A stretch of DNA of 64,000 bases. Source: a virus. This document shows, one piece after another, positions 2,297-61,535 of this stretch. The notes beneath the pieces were generated by a model. The model was not told the DNA's origin. It worked only from the letters and a program-made list of their open reading frames with translations, and searched no databases. The number at the start of each line of letters is the position of its first letter. Within the stretch, counting starts at the first letter, position 1. Position numbers and translations under genes: made by a program. The DNA is taken from the IMG/VR virus record IMGVR_UViG_3300020438_002794, positions 23,130 to 87,129 of that record, one strand, 5' to 3'.

Positions 2297-3228
2297 AGTT
2301 GCTCCTTTATATATTCTATAGTATGCATTAATCCCGCCTGTCTGTCAACAGTGGGTTCCCACCCTAAACAGTCACGGGCAAGTTGAATATCCGGACAACG
2401 TTTGTTGGGATCATCTACTGCACTGGCTTGATGCACTATTTCACTAGTACTATCAGTAAGTTCAACAATCTCTTGTGCTAATTCAATTAAACTAACTTCG
2501 TCTGGATTCCCTATATTTACAGGACCTGCATGGTCACTGTTCATAAGTTTTATTAATCCTTGTACAGTATCAGTTACATAACAAAAACTTCTAGTCTGTA
2601 GTCCATCACCGTGTACAGTGATTGGTTTATTTTGCAATGCTTGTATTATAAAATTACTAACTGCTCTACCATCATTCAGTGCCATGTGTGGTCCATATGT
2701 GTTGAATATTCTGGCAATAGTTGTATCAGCACTGCTGATAGTACACATGGTTTCTGCTACACGCTTGCCTTCATCATAACAAGCACGTGGTCCTAGTGTG
2801 TTTACGTTGCCCCAATATGTTTCTTTTTGTGGATGTTCAAGTGGATCACCATATACTTCGCTGGTGCTTGCTTGTAGCAATCTAGCGTCAGCTTGTTCAG
2901 CCACGCTCAACATGTTGATCACACCTTCCATGTTGGTCATCAGTGTGTTCCATGCATCGCTTTGATAGTGTACAGGACTAGCAGGGCAAGCTAAGTTGTA
3001 TATTTGTTTAAGCGGATCAAACTTTCCCATTAGTTGATAATCGTGCAAGGGAATTTTTATGTCCTGTTCAATAAAATAATAATTATTTTTTCCTCTGAAC
3101 TGTAGTAAGTTATCCGCTGATCCTGTGTAATAGTTGTCCACAGCAATTACAATCTCACCTTGTGCCAACAGTTGTTTACACAATTCAGTTCCTAATAATC
3201 CTGCGGCTCCTGTTACCAATATGGTCAT
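2284..3228 (-). CDS. NAD-dependent sugar epimerase/dehydratase, UDP-glucuronate decarboxylase-like
   Basis: An extended SDR enzyme of 314 residues. The NAD-binding TGAAGLLG lies at residues 6-13, and the catalytic pair is visible in ASTSEVYGDP followed by CYDEGKR (Tyr-x-x-x-Lys). The segments YNLACPASPVHYQ, RIFNTYGPHM, and GDGLQTRSFCYV are those of UDP-glucuronate decarboxylase (UXS), which makes UDP-xylose; related 4,6-dehydratases cannot be excluded. The ATG at 3228 gives an ATGA overlap with the upstream glycosyltransferase; an ATG three codons upstream also exists. It would supply an activated sugar to the glycosyltransferases of the cluster. Confidence 0.88.
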   Translation of the reverse strand: MTILVTGAAGLLGTELCKQLLAQGEIVIAVDNYYTGSADNLLQFRGKNNYYFIEQDIKIPLHDYQLMGKFDPLKQIYNLACPASPVHYQSDAWNTLMTNMEGVINMLSVAEQADARLLQASTSEVYGDPLEHPQKETYWGNVNTLGPRACYDEGKRVAETMCTISSADTTIARIFNTYGPHMALNDGRAVSNFIIQALQNKPITVHGDGLQTRSFCYVTDTVQGLIKLMNSDHAGPVNIGNPDEVSLIELAQEIVELTDSTSEIVHQASAVDDPNKRCPDIQLARDCLGWEPTVDRQAGLMHTIEYIKEQLCKQ

Positions 3229-3968
3229 ATATACCAATATCCCAATCGTTTTAAACTGTCGATTTTTGCTGTATCTCCTAAATACTCTTGTGTGTTATCC
3301 CAATCTTTGTATGCATATTTTCCAGTCACATGAAATATATGCCAATTTTCTGCACGTTCGTAGTTGTGTCCAGTGGGAAACAATGTAGGCTCTAATAAAT
3401 CTATTCGTGTTTTTGTGTGTTTGATGTGGGTATTAACAAATAATTGACAGGTACTATCGTAACCGTTAGCATACAAGTAATCTGTATCACACATACTTAT
3501 GTTTATTGGAGTTGCCCTCATTCCGTACATGCCTGTACCACAGTTGTAATCACCGTGTGCTTTTATGGGGTCGCCCAGCCAAGCATACTGCTTGACACTT
3601 TGACATATTTGTTCTGCACCATTGTTAAACATTTGTCTTATGTGAACTGTGTAATCTTTTTGTGCAACACAATCAACATCAGTATAAAACCAATTTAATC
3701 CACACTGCATAATTTGTTGACCTACAATAAATTTATATACAAACACATGATGATCACCTTGTGGTATGTATACTGTGGGAACACGGCTTTGCATTGCACT
3801 ATAACTTAGTGAGTCCAATGCTACATACAATAAATCGATACCCAACTGTTTGCAGTTTTCAACCCAGTTCATAGCCAATGGTAATACTGTTTGGTCTCCC
3901 ATACACCAGAACACTGTGTCTGTACCATATTTTAATTGTGTGCAATATTCTTCAATTGACTTTGGCAT
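3225..3968 (-). CDS. Glycosyltransferase, nucleotide-diphospho-sugar transferase type
   Basis: A protein of 247 residues. The segment VLPLAMNWVENCKQLGID, then LYVALD, an AMQSR element, and NWFYTDVDCV fit the GT-A type nucleotide-sugar transferase family that includes GT77-like proteins; DVD is the likely metal-binding motif. The start at 3968 is chosen because AAGGAG sits six bases before that ATG; a longer frame would overlap the upstream gene by 77 bases. It overlaps the UXS-like gene downstream, which fits a donor-supply and transfer pair. Donor and acceptor are not deducible. Confidence 0.75.
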   Translation of the reverse strand: MPKSIEEYCTQLKYGTDTVFWCMGDQTVLPLAMNWVENCKQLGIDLLYVALDSLSYSAMQSRVPTVYIPQGDHHVFVYKFIVGQQIMQCGLNWFYTDVDCVAQKDYTVHIRQMFNNGAEQICQSVKQYAWLGDPIKAHGDYNCGTGMYGMRATPINISMCDTDYLYANGYDSTCQLFVNTHIKHTKTRIDLLEPTLFPTGHNYERAENWHIFHVTGKYAYKDWDNTQEYLGDTAKIDSLKRLGYWYI

Positions 3969-22570: not shown

Positions 22571-23922
22571 TATTCTACCAACTTTCTAACATTTTGATAC
22601 AAGTCATCATCAACAATACTAAAGTTGGTATTACGCTGTCTGTCCCATACTTCTGTCATCTTCACAAAGTCTTGTAATTGTTCTTTCCAATTATCTAACT
22701 GTGGTTGTTCCAAATATCCTACGATACCATCTACACTATTCTTAATTAACCAGTTCTTCTCATATAATATATTACACTGTTCTTTAAATTCAAGCAATCT
22801 ATTTTTTGCATTCTGTCTCATTTCAACAGGAAGATTTCTCACATCTAAATACGGAGGATGTGTATTAATTAATATGTCAACACCAATACTTTTCCATTCT
22901 ATTTCTGGCTTTCCTGCATAAAATTCTTCGCCTAACTCGTGTGCAAGCCATAGTATTTCGTGTATTCGATTTATGTTGTAGATTTGTAGTACAGGACTTA
23001 TATTGCTAGAAACGTTTGGTAAACTTAATATGCTTCTATAGTTTCTAAGTATAATGTCCCAACTCTTAGTGCCTCGTATAAATTCATTTACAACGCCTAC
23101 ACCATCTAAACTAGCATTGATGTCTACACTTTCAAATTTACCAATACTATCCAAAAACTTTTGATTAGCATTTGTACAGTTGGTATTCATAAACACATTA
23201 ATATGTTTACTATGACCTTGTTCAGCGGCATAGTTTAAAAACTGCATGTTGTTTTGAATCATAGTTGGCTCACCACCTGTCATGTAAACTTTTCTTAGTT
23301 TAGGCATCCATTCGTATATGTCTTTCCAAAAATCATCAGCATCAAACTTTTCTCTGTATTCTTTGCTGTTGATCCAGTCTGGACGTTTGCCGTATGTTTT
23401 CTCTTGTATTCTGGTATAGTCCTCTTCAACATCTGTGAGCTTGGCATCTTCTTTAGCAATAGTACTACTGTTAAAACTGTTGCACATTCTACAACTAAGA
23501 TTACACAAGTTACCCAAACGCAGGTCCAAGTAAAGAGGATCGTGTTCTGGTAATGCAAAGTCATTATTATAGCTTGCTTCAATGCGTTCATGAATAGCTT
23601 CTTCGCCTATACGGCGTTCCCATTCCTCATTGTGCATTTGTCTGAAACTTTTTTTACCTACTTCTTCTTGCAGGTAACAGTGTTTACAACTACTAACTTG
23701 TTCTCCTTGAATCATAGTCATGCGTATATCACGCATGTCTTTATCATTCCATGCTTGCTTTAGTGTTGTACTATTGATATCTAAAATTTTGCCATCATCG
23801 CCACGTAGTACACTGGGTTTGGCAATACAGCAAAAGTCAATACTTCCACTGGTATTCACCATCATGCTTAACCAAGGGTAAACACAAAATGTTTCCCCGT
23901 ACAATTCATCCCAGTCTGCCAT
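22570..23922 (-). CDS. Radical SAM protein with N-terminal twitch domain (copy 1)
   Basis: About 450 residues. FCVYPWLSMMVNTSG-SIDFCC, LKQAWNDKDMRDIR and CKHCYLQEE make up the N-terminal twitch module; CNLSCRMC near residue 148 is the radical SAM motif; YMTGGEPTMI, NTNCTNAN and ASLDGVG follow. Shared with the next gene are DLRLGN-x-CN-x2-C-x-MC and the general layout. The gene begins three bases after the glycosyltransferase-like gene's stop. Identity as a twitch-type radical SAM protein is firm; function is not known for this family as far as I am aware. Confidence 0.94.
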   Translation of the reverse strand: MADWDELYGETFCVYPWLSMMVNTSGSIDFCCIAKPSVLRGDDGKILDINSTTLKQAWNDKDMRDIRMTMIQGEQVSSCKHCYLQEEVGKKSFRQMHNEEWERRIGEEAIHERIEASYNNDFALPEHDPLYLDLRLGNLCNLSCRMCNSFNSSTIAKEDAKLTDVEEDYTRIQEKTYGKRPDWINSKEYREKFDADDFWKDIYEWMPKLRKVYMTGGEPTMIQNNMQFLNYAAEQGHSKHINVFMNTNCTNANQKFLDSIGKFESVDINASLDGVGVVNEFIRGTKSWDIILRNYRSILSLPNVSSNISPVLQIYNINRIHEILWLAHELGEEFYAGKPEIEWKSIGVDILINTHPPYLDVRNLPVEMRQNAKNRLLEFKEQCNILYEKNWLIKNSVDGIVGYLEQPQLDNWKEQLQDFVKMTEVWDRQRNTNFSIVDDDLYQNVRKLVE

Positions 23923-56982: not shown

Positions 56983-57664
56983 AATTTTTATGTTCGATGT
57001 TGACGGCACACTTACAGACCCAAGACGTACAATAGTACCAGAGTTTAAGGAGTTTATGTTTGACTTTGTTGCAAACAATACATGTATGATTGTAACAGGA
57101 AGTGATAGACCTAAGACTGTAGAACAAATTGGGGAAGATCTCACTAACAGTTTTGCAAGAGTATATCATTGCAGTGGCAACCATGTGTTTGTTAGCGGTG
57201 AGGAAGTATACAAAAGCGATTGGACATTAACAGAAGCTCAACAAACTTTTTTACAAACTATACTACCTAGTTTTGGTTATCCTGAAATGACTGGTAATCA
57301 TATCGAACAGCGTACAGGAACCGCAAACTTTAGTATAGTAGGGCGTAATGCTGATTGGGATCAACGTGCTAGATATGCTGATTGGGAAAAGTCTAATCGA
57401 GGTAGAGATACAGTAGCAATGTATTACAATCAAGAATTCGATGATAGCATTGCTCAAGTAGCTGGACAGACCAGCATAGATATTTTTAAGAAAGGCTGTG
57501 ACAAGAGTCAAGCTATAAGAGAACATGAAGGTACAACAATTTATTTTGGTGACCATTGTAACCCAGGCGGTAATGATTTTACAGCCGCACAAGCAAGCAC
57601 AAGTTTTCATCAGATTGACCAAGGATATAAACAAACTTGGGAAATCTTAAAAAACATGTACTAA
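56972..57664 (+). CDS. HAD-superfamily phosphatase, phosphomannomutase-like, 230 aa
   Basis: IFMFDVDGTLT at residues 5-15 carries the DxDGT nucleophile, IVTGSDRPK the second motif, and IYFGDHCNPGGND the final acidic motif. Between them, QRTGTANFSIVGRNADWDQRARYADWE matches the cap of eukaryotic-type phosphomannomutases (RxGxxNxSxxGR). The product could make mannose-1-phosphate for GDP-sugars and thus feed the sugar cluster. The start overlaps the preceding gene by 11 bases. Phage HAD phosphatases are the alternative. Confidence 0.85.
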   Translation: MKNKIFMFDVDGTLTDPRRTIVPEFKEFMFDFVANNTCMIVTGSDRPKTVEQIGEDLTNSFARVYHCSGNHVFVSGEEVYKSDWTLTEAQQTFLQTILPSFGYPEMTGNHIEQRTGTANFSIVGRNADWDQRARYADWEKSNRGRDTVAMYYNQEFDDSIAQVAGQTSIDIFKKGCDKSQAIREHEGTTIYFGDHCNPGGNDFTAAQASTSFHQIDQGYKQTWEILKNMY

Positions 57665-57669
57665 ACCGG

Positions 57670-57699
57670 TTGACAAAGGGTAGAAAAGATATATATAAT
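57670..57699 (+). promoter_or_regulatory. Consensus sigma70-type promoter before the endonuclease gene and RNA
   Basis: TTGACA (57670-57675) and TATAAT (57694-57699) are exact and 18 bases apart. The next gene begins 19 bases downstream. No other promoter is seen before the candidate RNA at 58171-58408, so both may be on one transcript. Confidence 0.8.
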
Positions 57700-57717
57700 T
57701 GTTGCTAATAAACAAAT

Positions 57718-58146
57718 ATGCAATGGACTTATCAAGGCAAAATAGTAGAAGAAATAAGTGAGGAATACATAGGGTTTGTATATCTTATTACTAATCTCAC
57801 AAACGGCAAAAAGTATATTGGCAAAAAACTAGCAAAGTTTAAAGTAACTAAAAAACCACTCAAAGGCAAGAAAAATAAAAGACGTTCAACTAAAGAAAGT
57901 GACTGGAGAACTTATTGGGGAAGCAGTGACCATTTAAACGCAGATGTTGAACAATTAGGCCCAGAAAACTTCACAAGAGAAATACTGTACTACTGCACCA
58001 GCAGAGGCGAACTAAGTTACTTAGAAGCCAAAGAACAGTTTGACCGTGAAGTTCTTAAAACTGATGAATACTATAACGGCATTATAAACGTAAGAGTTGG
58101 CAGTTCCAAGGCACTTGTAGAATCACTAAACAGACACCAGTCGTAA
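57718..58146 (+). CDS. GIY-YIG family endonuclease-like protein, 142 aa
   Basis: GFVYLITNLTNGKKYIGKK at residues 19-37 is the GIY-YIG core (here GFVYLI...KYIG). The arginine/lysine segment KKNKRRSTKESDWRTYWGSS and the glutamate in SYLEAKEQFDREVL complete the catalytic layout. It resembles Seg-type free-standing homing endonucleases of T4-like phages. It has its own promoter and is followed by a GC-rich RNA-like region, a pairing seen with mobile introns and homing loci. Confidence 0.85.
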   Translation: MQWTYQGKIVEEISEEYIGFVYLITNLTNGKKYIGKKLAKFKVTKKPLKGKKNKRRSTKESDWRTYWGSSDHLNADVEQLGPENFTREILYYCTSRGELSYLEAKEQFDREVLKTDEYYNGIINVRVGSSKALVESLNRHQS

Positions 58147-58170
58147 CATACCCTCTTTGTTAAAAGCATT

Positions 58171-58408
58171 GAGATTGTTCGCAGTAATGCGGGCCGTCGG
58201 AACTTGCTCGAGGGAAACAAACCAAAAGAGTGGGCTCTACTGTGCCATTGTAACCCACGGATAGCTCAAAAGTCGGCGTTATGGCTTAGAGTGTTTCTGC
58301 GTTTTAAGCAGTATGTAAAGGGGTATAGCAAAACCGCCTCTGCCTAGCAATAGGTTATACTATAACGATGCGAACTGTAGACGGGGTAATGACCGTTTCT
58401 TTTTTTTG
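58171..58408 (+). ncRNA. Candidate structured noncoding RNA
   Basis: No open frame of note covers 58147-58538. The stretch 58181-58260 is about 55 percent GC by my count, much higher than its surroundings. GTTCGCA (58177-58183) is perfectly complementary to TGCGAAC (58369-58375), so a 7-bp helix could close a domain of nearly 200 bases. Inside are hairpins with GNRA tetraloops: CGCA-GTAA-TGCG (58180-58191, alternative to the closing helix) and CCTA-GCAA-TAGG, plus GTGGG...CCCAC and CTGC...GCAG. An intrinsic terminator follows directly. It matches no RNA family I can name; a group I intron or tmRNA core was not found. Confidence 0.6.
58379..58407 (+). terminator. Intrinsic terminator (forward)
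   Basis: AGACGG (58379-58384) pairs with CCGTTT (58393-58398) around an 8-base loop, and eight Ts follow at 58400-58407. It would end the transcript that carries the GIY-YIG gene and the candidate RNA. Confidence 0.72.
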
Positions 58409-58433
58409 CACTTGGCTGTAACAAGCTAAGTGC
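58408..58433. other. Strong hairpin between convergent terminators
   Basis: GCACTTGGCT (58408-58417) and AGCTAAGTGC (58424-58433) form a 10-bp stem with one G-U pair and a 6-base loop. It follows the forward T-run, so it is not that terminator's stem. It may protect a 3' end or belong to a longer form of the RNA. Confidence 0.55.
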
Positions 58434-58474
58434 GACTGAAAACAAGGTAATAACGTATCATATAAAATATGTTT

Positions 58475-58529
58475 AAAAAAAATTATCATACGAAATGAAA
58501 TGAGTATGACGATGAGCTTTAGCTCTTCG
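58475..58529 (-). terminator. Intrinsic terminator of the gp26 operon (reverse)
   Basis: On the minus strand TCATAC and GTATGA (58509-58504 and 58491-58486) form a 6-bp stem followed by TAA and eight Ts (58482-58475). Just before it is another hairpin, arms at 58510-58517 and 58522-58529, with one mismatch. It stands right after the gp51-like stop codon at 58539, as expected for the end of this operon. Confidence 0.68.
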
Positions 58530-58538
58530 AAAGAATGT

Positions 58539-58802
58539 TTAAAATGTTCTACGATTAGTACCTTTTGCACTTTCTAAAGCTTCTTTCTGCTTTTCATTCT
58601 TGGTTTGCATAGCATCATTAATATCACTAATCAATCGCATAGGATATTGTTCTAAGTTAGAATAGTTAAATGCTCCTTCTGAGTAAAGCACAATATTCAA
58701 TAAAGCTAATCTGATTTCTTTAGATGCATTTTCGTAGCGTTTTACGAGGTCATTTATCTCATCGCTGGTTTTCCTTCGACGGAGGGTGTTGTGAAAAAAA
58801 AA
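58539..58802 (-). CDS. -1 frame extension of gp26 (gp51-like; tail chaperone T-like)
   Basis: This frame is open from the T-run inside gp26 to a TAA at 58539-58541 and encodes about 85 residues, including DEINDLVKRYENASKEIRL, ALLNIVLYSEGAF and YPMRLISDINDAM. It is helical, protein-like and ends close to a terminator, but has no ATG, GTG or TTG at a sensible place after gp26's stop. The likely expression route is -1 frameshifting at 58794-58802, which would give a gp26-extension fusion as in the G/GT tail chaperones of other phages. T4 gene 51 neighbours gene 26, so this may be the gp51 counterpart. Initiation at a rare ATA is the alternative. Confidence 0.7.
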   Translation of the reverse strand, partial: FFFHNTLRRRKTSDEINDLVKRYENASKEIRLALLNIVLYSEGAFNYSNLEQYPMRLISDINDAMQTKNEKQKEALESAKGTNRRTF

Positions 58803-59620
58803 CTTGGGTTAAACTCTACTAGTGAACTAAAGCCTTTTTGGCAGTCCTCTATACCACATGTAAATTTAAATTCTTTAGGTATTCCATTTGAGTTTAATTT
58901 AAATTGTTGCCCGCTTAATATTTCGATAGTTCTGCGATTAGAGTTGCTTAACCAATCTATAATATGTTGATTTTCGCTAACTATTTGTCCGTCTGGCATT
59001 GTAACTTTAACAATAGCATCTGCTACTAGTACTAGATTTGCCGCCGCAATTTGTTGTATGTTTTCGCTGTATCTACCTCTGAGGTCTTCGGTTATATCTT
59101 GTTTATCTGCTCTAATACCTTGTAGTATTCTTCCAGTTTCGCTGGTCACAATGTTATTTGCATTTACAGCTGAAAGTGTATTAGGTTTCATTTCAACTAC
59201 AAGACCATCTACTTCTATTTCTACTTGATCTGTTACTGATACAATTTGACCTAATACTTTTTGTAAATCGATATCAAACATTTGTGAATTTTCACAATGT
59301 GGACATGTGGCTTCTACTGGATAAGTTTTTTCATAACTGGTTGCCCTACTAGCAAGCATTACTACATCTACATCAGGTAAACTCATATCACTAGCATCTG
59401 TGATATCTGGGCAGATGCTTTCTATTAATTCGAAGATTGATTGCCCGTTGTATAGTGCATCAGGAATGTTAAGTAACAATTCATCTCTAACATTCATTGC
59501 TCTTACACCTATTTCACCGTCTTGTGACAGTTTAGGTGGAGATTTCATCCATCTGCCTTTAGTAGGAAGTTTAACGTAGATATCTTTGGTTCTATAATAC
59601 CCCTGAAGTGGATTTTCCAT
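58754..59620 (-). CDS. 26: Baseplate hub assembly protein gp26-like, 288 aa
   Basis: The N-terminal domain (VKLPTKGRWM, GEIGVRAMNVRDELLLNIPDALYNG, ESICPDI) is that of the T4 gp26-like baseplate family of cyanophages. Cysteine pairs CPHC near residue 110 and CGIEDC near 265 suggest a zinc site. It is longer than T4 gp26 (208). Near the 3' end it carries the T-run described at 58794-58802. The divergent tape-measure-like gene 61 bases away is consistent with a tail assembly chaperone role. Confidence 0.82.
   Translation of the reverse strand: MENPLQGYYRTKDIYVKLPTKGRWMKSPPKLSQDGEIGVRAMNVRDELLLNIPDALYNGQSIFELIESICPDITDASDMSLPDVDVVMLASRATSYEKTYPVEATCPHCENSQMFDIDLQKVLGQIVSVTDQVEIEVDGLVVEMKPNTLSAVNANNIVTSETGRILQGIRADKQDITEDLRGRYSENIQQIAAANLVLVADAIVKVTMPDGQIVSENQHIIDWLSNSNRRTIEILSGQQFKLNSNGIPKEFKFTCGIEDCQKGFSSLVEFNPSFFFTTPSVEGKPAMR
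58794..58802 (-). other. Slippery T-run, probable programmed -1 frameshift site
   Basis: On the minus strand the gp26 frame reads AGT TTT TTT TTC, a run of nine Ts that contains T-TTT-TTT and T-TTT-TTC heptamers of the X-XXY-YYZ type. It lies 13 codons before the gp26 stop. Slippage by one base leads into the open gp51-like frame. Polymerase slippage on the run could act instead of ribosomal slippage. Confidence 0.68.
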
Positions 59621-59630
59621 ATTTTTTACC

Positions 59631-59638
59631 TATAAATA
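59631..59638 (+). promoter_or_regulatory. T4-type late promoter of the tape-measure-like gene
   Basis: CTATAAATAC contains the exact octamer TATAAATA, 43 bases before the ATG at 59682. It lies inside the leader of the divergent gp26 gene. Confidence 0.82.
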
Positions 59639-59654
59639 CAATATATGTTAAAGT

Positions 59655-59681: not shown

Positions 59682-61535
59682 ATGTCAATAATTACAATTA
59701 ATATGGGCGGTAAGCCAATGGTAGTAGATGTTCCAGACTTTGCAATGGAACAAACACAACAGGATATTCGTAATATTATGAGTGATTTGCAAGCTACTAT
59801 GTCGGGTGTTCAAACAGCTACTCAGCAAGGCACTGTTGGTGATCAACAAATAAAACAAGCTATTGCAAACTTACAAGCTAATGACAACAAATTAGATTCA
59901 AAAGAAGATCGAAGACAAAGCAAGTTTGCTGAAGGTGTAGGCAAAGCTAGTGCTTTAGGTATGATGCAAAGTGTAGCTAAACCCGGAATGTTGACTAGTT
60001 TTATGAAGTCGATCGGACTAGGCACAATGGGTGTTGCCTTAGGTATGGTTACAGGTCTTGCTAAAGAACTTAGCAGTACTTTCAGTTTTGCTGGAGACGT
60101 TGGTGTTAGTTTTGGCGGTGACATAATGAAGACCAGTGAACGTTTAGCAACAATAGGTTTACAGTTAGATCAATTCGGAGATGTAATAGCACAAAATACA
60201 GGAATGATGTTTGAGCTTGCAGGTAATGTTGAAGACGGCAGTCAACAGTTCATTGGTATAGTTGAAAATTTTAGAAAAGGATCTGAAGAGTTTGGTTATT
60301 TTGGATTAGCCAGCAGTGAAATGGCACAGTTTATGGCAGAAGAACTGGACATTAGAAGAAAAAGTATGAATGCAGAACAGCTACGTTTGTTTATCCAAAA
60401 TGATCTAAATGATGCAATGGTCAAAAACTTTAACGAGCAAACAAAAATGGCTCAAATTACAGGACAAAATGTTAGAGATAGAATTAGAGCTCAGATGGCG
60501 GCAAAAGAAGATGCTAGATTACAAGCCGCAATGATTGGAATGACACAAGACCAGCGTACAGCTATTGACGGAGTGTTTTCAAATCTCACTGAAAACTTAG
60601 GCAGTGCAGGTAAAGAAATTACGAATGCTATTATTCAAGAAGTTGCAGTTGAAGGAACTGGACTAGCAACTGCTGGTGGTAGAATGGCACAGCTAGATAC
60701 AAGTGGAAACCTAATGAGAATAATACAACAAGGTGCCTCTATGATTAGAAGTGGAGCAACTCAAGAAGAAGCCAATAATGCTATAGCTCAAGCGTTACAA
60801 GACTTTAAGCAGACTGCTGATTTAAGTACTTTCCAAATTCAAGCATTTGGGGGAAATGAAGATGCAATGAAACTAATGCAGATGGCACTTGGTATAAATG
60901 AAAAGACCAACACCATAGCTGATGCTCGTAATGAATTAATGAACGAAGAGAATCAAGAACGTAGAAAATACATAGACTTTATGAGAGGGCTAAATGCTGA
61001 TTTAGATGTACAACAAGCAACAGCCGCTAATTTGACTCTTAGATCTATTTTAAAACTAGGTGGAGCTGATGCACAAGATGTTGTAAAAGGCATGAGAGAT
61101 TTTACTAAAAACATGACTGGGGCTTTAAGCAGTGATTTTACAAAAGGTTTATTTGAAGGACTTGGTGCAATTATGAATCAACTTACAATAAGTCCACTAT
61201 TGAATGCTATAAATGGTGATGCAAATAAATCTGAGATGGCTTTCCTTATAGCAGAAATTATGAAAGCAACTGGTGTATTTCCTAGTTTAATGACCAGTGC
61301 AATGCAATTACCACAACAGGGTGTAGCGGCATTATACGGAGGTGAAACATTCTTAAAACAAGCCTTTGGCGACCAATATATGAAATCGAGACCAGATGGT
61401 GCAGGAGGGCGTGAACAATACTTTGATTATGATGCATTTGCTAAAGACCAAGGACAGATGCTTATTAATGGTTCTGAAAATTTCTTTCTTAGGATGGAAA
61501 GCATATTCAAAAGAGCAGTTGACAAAGAAACTTGA
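59682..61535 (+). CDS. Putative tail tape-measure-like protein, 617 aa
   Basis: Long, mostly helical, methionine/glutamine-rich protein. A hydrophobic glycine-rich segment at about 100-130 (SIGLGTMGVALGMVTGLAKEL) resembles the membrane-spanning part of tape measures. The length is close to T4 gp29 (590), which suits a tail of about T4 size at one helix pitch per residue. It is divergent from gp26 and precedes gp20. A minor capsid or internal virion protein is the alternative. Confidence 0.6.
   Translation: MSIITINMGGKPMVVDVPDFAMEQTQQDIRNIMSDLQATMSGVQTATQQGTVGDQQIKQAIANLQANDNKLDSKEDRRQSKFAEGVGKASALGMMQSVAKPGMLTSFMKSIGLGTMGVALGMVTGLAKELSSTFSFAGDVGVSFGGDIMKTSERLATIGLQLDQFGDVIAQNTGMMFELAGNVEDGSQQFIGIVENFRKGSEEFGYFGLASSEMAQFMAEELDIRRKSMNAEQLRLFIQNDLNDAMVKNFNEQTKMAQITGQNVRDRIRAQMAAKEDARLQAAMIGMTQDQRTAIDGVFSNLTENLGSAGKEITNAIIQEVAVEGTGLATAGGRMAQLDTSGNLMRIIQQGASMIRSGATQEEANNAIAQALQDFKQTADLSTFQIQAFGGNEDAMKLMQMALGINEKTNTIADARNELMNEENQERRKYIDFMRGLNADLDVQQATAANLTLRSILKLGGADAQDVVKGMRDFTKNMTGALSSDFTKGLFEGLGAIMNQLTISPLLNAINGDANKSEMAFLIAEIMKATGVFPSLMTSAMQLPQQGVAALYGGETFLKQAFGDQYMKSRPDGAGGREQYFDYDAFAKDQGQMLINGSENFFLRMESIFKRAVDKET

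Follow-up and report, generated by a model that had tools for sequence, protein, structure and literature searches.

A T4 gp26-type gene with a probable programmed −1 frameshift in a virus genome from IMG/VR

In T4-like phages the short and the long tail assembly chaperone (TAC) appear to be gp26 and gp51, an assignment attributed to Vladimirov, Gautam and Davidson (2022) and taken here from papers that cite their work (PMC10885494, PMC12846349). As these citing papers present it, some T4-like phages have separate genes for the two forms and do not use frameshifting, and the TAC-N genes of T4-like phages can contain poly-T slip sites. T4 gp26 and gp51 are also listed as hub assembly chaperones (PMC3004832). 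The gp51 of cyanophages is only about 20% the length of other gp51 proteins, and the T4-like phage Aeh1 was listed as lacking gp51 (Sullivan 2010, PMC3037559).

The window, by which we mean the whole stretch of 64,000 nucleotides that was analysed, corresponds to positions 23130–87129 of an 87-kb virus record. It holds a gp26-type gene for which a programmed −1 frameshift and a chaperone pair had been predicted, and conservation now strongly supports both. Judged from the sequences, it is very probable that −1 frameshifting gives a short (TAC-N) and a long (TAC-NC) tail assembly chaperone from this gene, where T4 uses a duplicated gene.

The gp26-type gene and its −1 frame

The gene lies on the minus strand at 59620..58754, and its short product, TAC-N, has 288 aa. 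It matches PF12322 (T4_baseplate; E 5e-16) and phrog_150, 'baseplate hub' (E 1e-19). The PF12322 domain covers residues 33–263 (58832..59524, minus strand) and scores 59.5 bits against a curated cut-off of 24.5, which places the protein in the T4 gp26 family; there is one PF12322 copy in the window's record. The AlphaFold model of the protein has a pLDDT of 87, falling below 50 only at residues 278–288, the 0-frame end past the slip position, and viral baseplate hub proteins match it with a TM of 0.8. This 0-frame end (TTPSVEGKPAMR and the stop; 58754..58792, minus strand) is predicted to be disordered and is not conserved among relatives.

Directly before it stands the slippery run TTTTTTTTTC (58793..58802, minus strand). 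Nine Ts near the end of gp26 had been pointed out in the original prediction, and a direct reading of the sequence finds them at 58802..58794. No other homopolymer in the 64 kb reaches nine bases; the next longest are one A8 and one T8. In codons the sequence reads AGT TTT TTT TTC ACA, the first T of the run being the third base of AGT, and the run gives two canonical −1 heptamers, T TTT TTT (58802-58796) and T TTT TTC (58799-58793).

The −1 frame is open over 89 codons, 58808..58539, and ends with a TAA at 58541-58539. The tail proper (HNTLRRRK...GTNRRTF, 84 codons and TAA; 58539..58793, minus strand) shows a third-position excess of substitutions past the 0-frame stop; it would add 84 residues past the slip (HNTLRRRKTSDEIND...KGTNRRTF), and the expected length of the fusion is about 360 aa. 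At the composition of the window, the chance of 84 open codons is about 0.001. The first start codons of the frame are TTG at 58700, GTG at 58691 and ATG at 58640; no ATG, GTG or TTG occurs for 33 codons. The original prediction was right both in its coordinates and in giving the open stretch, which lacks a usable start, a length of about 85 residues. AlphaFold gives a confident all-helical model of the tail (pLDDT 87), and the tail has no match among Pfam and PHROG families. A Foldseek search with gp26 and the tail against solved structures (PDB) gave no match, and hence none to a solved TAC; since both match nothing in the PDB, the fold relation to solved TACs is uninformative either way. 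The observation itself, a T9 run with an open −1 frame, is confirmed as real and beyond chance.

Conservation of the slip site and of both frames

Eight IMG/VR loci (100, 65 and 62% identity) all retain AGTTTTTTTTTCACA and the −1 protein, and their 0-frame residues past FFFT are unrelated. A profile search found 583 relatives; 80 of these were retained and pooled with reference loci. In all 93 lineage loci, the genes with their end present, T TTT TTC stands in frame close to the gp26 stop. The run is T6 in 81 of them and T9 in 12, and the T9 loci make up the window's clade, which reaches down to 45% protein identity. A −1 tail of 59–86 residues follows the slip in every untruncated lineage locus except that of cyanophage S-SCSM1. 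The cyanophage-type loci have the in-frame T TTT TTC in 80 of 80 cases, with 78 intact tails and 2 cut by contig ends. Altogether the slip site is identical, letter for letter, in well over 100 relatives, and as in a frameshifted TAC, slip site and −1 frame are conserved under selection across divergent relatives. Loss of the T-run with the frame kept, which would have spoken against the prediction, was never seen in close relatives.

The deviating S-SCSM1 locus (positions 3660-3730) retains T TTT TTC, but roughly 11 bases appear to have been inserted behind the heptamer. Its gp51 tail lies in the +1 frame after the insertion and has its own ATG; the phage may have lost the frameshift naturally, or sequencing may have introduced an error.

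The tail could also be a separate small protein with its own start, made by re-initiation near the gp26 stop. Database entries do annotate it in this way, as a 'baseplate hub assembly catalyst' of 45–63 aa, and an ATG lies among the first 15 codons in 71 of the 77 cyanophage-type tails that are intact. A gp51 homologue with its own start in relatives was the other observation that could have told against the prediction: close relatives keep the heptamer, and only the distant Cygsa01 and K414, and Kevin less clearly, have an overlapping start. Cygsa01 and K414 use an overlapping ATG with no heptamer, so such a solution exists. In the window, however, the first TTG stands 33 codons into the tail and would cut conserved sequence. 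An ATG within 15 codons is absent from 55 of the 62 non-redundant lineage tails, and 30 have no ATG, GTG or TTG; the 78-codon −1 frame of PA5oct has none of the three throughout. A separate start would also leave the invariant TTT TTC codons unexplained, and we regard it as very improbable.

These codons were compared with other codons of the same genes. The FF pair at the slip site is TTT TTC in 65/65 non-redundant lineage genes; ten other conserved two-fold residues in this set have a major-codon share of 0.57–0.83, and Phe elsewhere is coded by 317 TTT and 139 TTC. The cyanophage-type genes give the same picture: the pair is TTT TTC in 70 of 70 non-redundant genes, the major-codon share at 38 other conserved two-fold residues is 0.51–0.97, and Phe elsewhere is TTT 583 times and TTC 193 times. 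A second FF pair within the cyanophage-type gp26 has mixed codons, and the codon preceding the slip-site pair always ends in T in this set, though AGT and TCT alternate. The FF residues may be biased, one search pattern having contained FF, but the codon choice is free of this bias because the patterns were back-translated degenerately.

Past the 0-frame stop, substitutions at −1 codon positions 1/2/3 number 206/134/303, 458/248/770 and 627/328/997 in three clades, with the third position in excess each time; in the window's clade gene conversion may have homogenised part of this stretch, and the two other clades are free of it. Both frames are under purifying selection.

Such selection also speaks against a homopolymer indel from assembly or sequencing, or a decayed gene, as the origin of the arrangement. 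Homopolymers are indeed prone to errors, and a single additional T would fuse the two frames. An all but identical contig from a different metagenome (L002) has an identical T9, and the run is found again in L003, L005, L019, L020 and L024-L026, so T9 is not an assembly slip. The run recurs in contigs from several metagenomes and among the more distant members of the clade, and the T6 form stands in isolate genomes. An error or decay is thus refuted by the relatives, and its probability is practically negligible.

Downstream of gp26, a segE-like GIY-YIG endonuclease gene was observed at 57718-58146, within a conserved tract at 57604-58694. The endonuclease gene, the non-coding DNA that follows it and the tail's 3' end have approximately 90–96% DNA identity to certain phages whose gp26 has only 53–70% protein identity, and the edge of the tract varies with the relative (58694, 58566 or 58544). 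The pattern is suggestive of gene conversion near a homing endonuclease of the free-standing kind. The non-coding stretch, about 390 bp at 58147-58538, is strongly conserved among relatives and had no match in Rfam and tRNA/tmRNA scans; it may be conserved only through homing, or it may hold an RNA element.

Proposed mechanism and downstream RNA structure

In the mechanism we propose, most ribosomes would read gp26 to its own stop and make the 288-aa TAC-N. A fraction would slip one base back on T TTT TTC within T9, two tRNA-Phe re-pairing in tandem, and continue through the 84-residue helical tail to give TAC-NC, the fusion of about 360 aa. The role of the pair would resemble that of lambda G/GT, namely to accompany the tape measure protein and to bring in tail tube subunits, and T4 gp26 (short) and gp51 (long) would be the same two products from duplicated genes. 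We infer slippage itself, its rate, its ribosomal as opposed to transcriptional nature and the chaperone function from the comparisons given here.

Stimulatory hairpins, which should be stable and begin 5–9 nt past the slip site, were looked for. The one candidate in the window is weak and unconvincing (58760..58781, minus strand; whole-segment z −1.3), and seven sequences of the T9 clade showed no consistent downstream hairpin (mean z −0.46). The T6 groups have downstream structure above that of shuffled sequences (mean z −2.0 and −1.75); in the cyanophage group this excess is modest, as the control stretch there was also low (z −1.33). In an explicit pair count of the T6 cyanophage hairpin, 84.8% of cells were paired and 5 had both sides changed. 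RNAalifold gave no consensus pairs for the two downstream alignments, which leaves the pair count as the sole evidence for the cyanophage hairpin. A T9 run with no downstream hairpin is peculiar to the window's clade. The extended run may make up for the loss of the hairpin, or in this clade slippage may take place at transcription.

Slippage at transcription would mean that RNA polymerase adds a U on T9, and that the resulting U10 message is translated normally into the fusion. A run of nine Ts is sufficiently long for the polymerase, and the hairpin seen in the T6 groups is lost in the T9 clade. On the other hand, the other groups keep the same site and tail with only T6 and then C, which is too short for efficient polymerase slippage, and the invariable phase, T TTT TTC, is what tandem tRNA slippage predicts. 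Transcriptional slippage is therefore a rather improbable explanation, and the ancestral mechanism can be argued to be ribosomal because the T6 form is conserved elsewhere. It is conceivable, though unlikely, that the mode of recoding was switched in one lineage, from an ancestral T6C with a hairpin (ribosomal) to T9C with none (possibly transcriptional) in the window's marine clade, the pair then being made in three ways across the superfamily.

Relation to T4 gp26 and gp51 and to other tail chaperones

T4 gp26 (208 aa) and T4 gp51 (249 aa) are both members of PF12322. In the alignment gp51 continues through the slip position into a C-terminal extension, and T4 gp26 ends there. The −1 tails of cyanophages are collinear with the C-terminus of gp51 (hhalign 97.4%, 1e-11). 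The tails of the window's clade align with jumbo-phage tails (98.3%, 2e-14), the jumbo and cyanophage tails align weakly (46–63%), and the window-clade tail has no direct similarity to the gp51 C-terminus (0.2%) and does not match phrog_634. Describing the extension as gp51-like thus holds by sequence for the cyanophage tails; for the window it has the position and the weak chain through jumbo phages and cyanophages behind it. By its position, the tail of the window's clade would be the equivalent of the gp51 tail. The adjacency of genes 26 and 51 in T4 was likewise rightly noted, but the two are divergently oriented there.

Gene number was counted in 23 whole records. Two PF12322 copies are present in 6/6 T4-type records (T4, phiAS4 and four T4-type genomes from IMG/VR, G001-G004), with gp26 as the short gene and gp51 as the long one, and one copy is present in 17/17 records with no separate gp51 paralogue; every slip-site phage carries one. 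Among the 17, T TTT TTC was found in 13 (including S-SCSM1, whose tail is out of frame) and T TTT TTA AAC in one, Rhizobium phage RHph_I1_18; Kevin, Cygsa01 and K414 lack a canonical heptamer and instead have a start that overlaps or lies nearby. We read this as a single short/long pair with three modes of production, namely frameshifting, an overlapping start and, in T4, duplication, and for these modes we infer the direction of change.

In RHph_I1_18 (about 3199-3235) a −1 gp51-like tail follows the slip site T TTT TTA AAC. The heptamer U UUA AAC within it is known from coronaviruses. A −1 gp51-like tail was also seen in Cronobacter phage LPCS28 (3178-3342) and Aeromonas phage avDM6 (3205-3369), in an unannotated gap of about 164 bases that separates gp26 from the next gene.

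Reading the tail as a frameshift product offers an explanation for the truncated-looking gp51 of cyanophages: if gp51 there is the frameshift tail, a length of about 20% is expected. It would also explain why gp51 is unannotated in avDM6 and LPCS28, and the gap in these two phages may explain the 'missing' gp51 of Aeh1. Marine and jumbo phages would then be misannotated in large number at the gp26/tail gene, and one gene family would be available for comparing frameshifting, overlapping starts and duplication.

The divergent neighbour of gp26, a 617-aa structural gene (59682..61535, plus strand), had been taken for tape-measure-like. Family scans gave no tape measure protein (TMP) match, and hhalign was negative against T4 gp29 and proteins of K567, RHph, LPCS28 and avDM6. 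The gene shares its place with 'structural protein' genes of PA5oct and 121Q, and aligns with that of 121Q at 20% identity (E 1e-4). Large tail genes follow the pair in cyanophages, Vibrio phage K567 and RHph_I1_18, and in the last two a PHROG for tape measure proteins is matched among these downstream genes. Taken with the assignment of Vladimirov et al. (2022) as relayed by PMC10885494 and PMC12846349, tail assembly chaperones are the best supported reading. Ahead of the 617-aa gene, TATAAATA at 59630-59645 (plus strand) resembles a T4 late promoter, and the complement of this element faces gp26 on the minus strand.

Frameshifted tail chaperones are established, and the present case extends them with a T9 variant specific to one clade. 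Lambda gpG/gpGT (Levin 1993; Xu, Hendrix and Duda 2004) is alike in having a short tail chaperone, a −1 slip near the 3' end and a start-less C-terminal extension. It differs in that there is no sequence relation and the window's proteins match no solved TAC fold, in that the window has T TTT TTC, enlarged to T9 C, as its slip site, and in that its gene is divergent from the structural neighbour and not upstream of it. T4 gp26 and gp51 share PF12322 and the short and long forms with the window, the gp51 extension beginning at the aligned slip position, but T4 has a separate gene for each form and lacks a slip site, where the window has one gene and a slip site. The gp26 and mini-gp51 of P-SSM2, S-RIM8 and S-RIM2 come with the same layout of one PF12322 gene, T TTT TTC and a −1 tail; their run, however, is T6, often with a downstream hairpin, and their tail resembles the gp51 C-terminus and is usually annotated as a separate gene. 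The Vandenendeviridae/Andersonviridae (phage Adele, PMC12846349) also have a conserved −1 frame and a poly-T, GTTTTT, at the end of TAC-N, but they belong to another phage family with another motif, and are likened to gp26 here by their layout.
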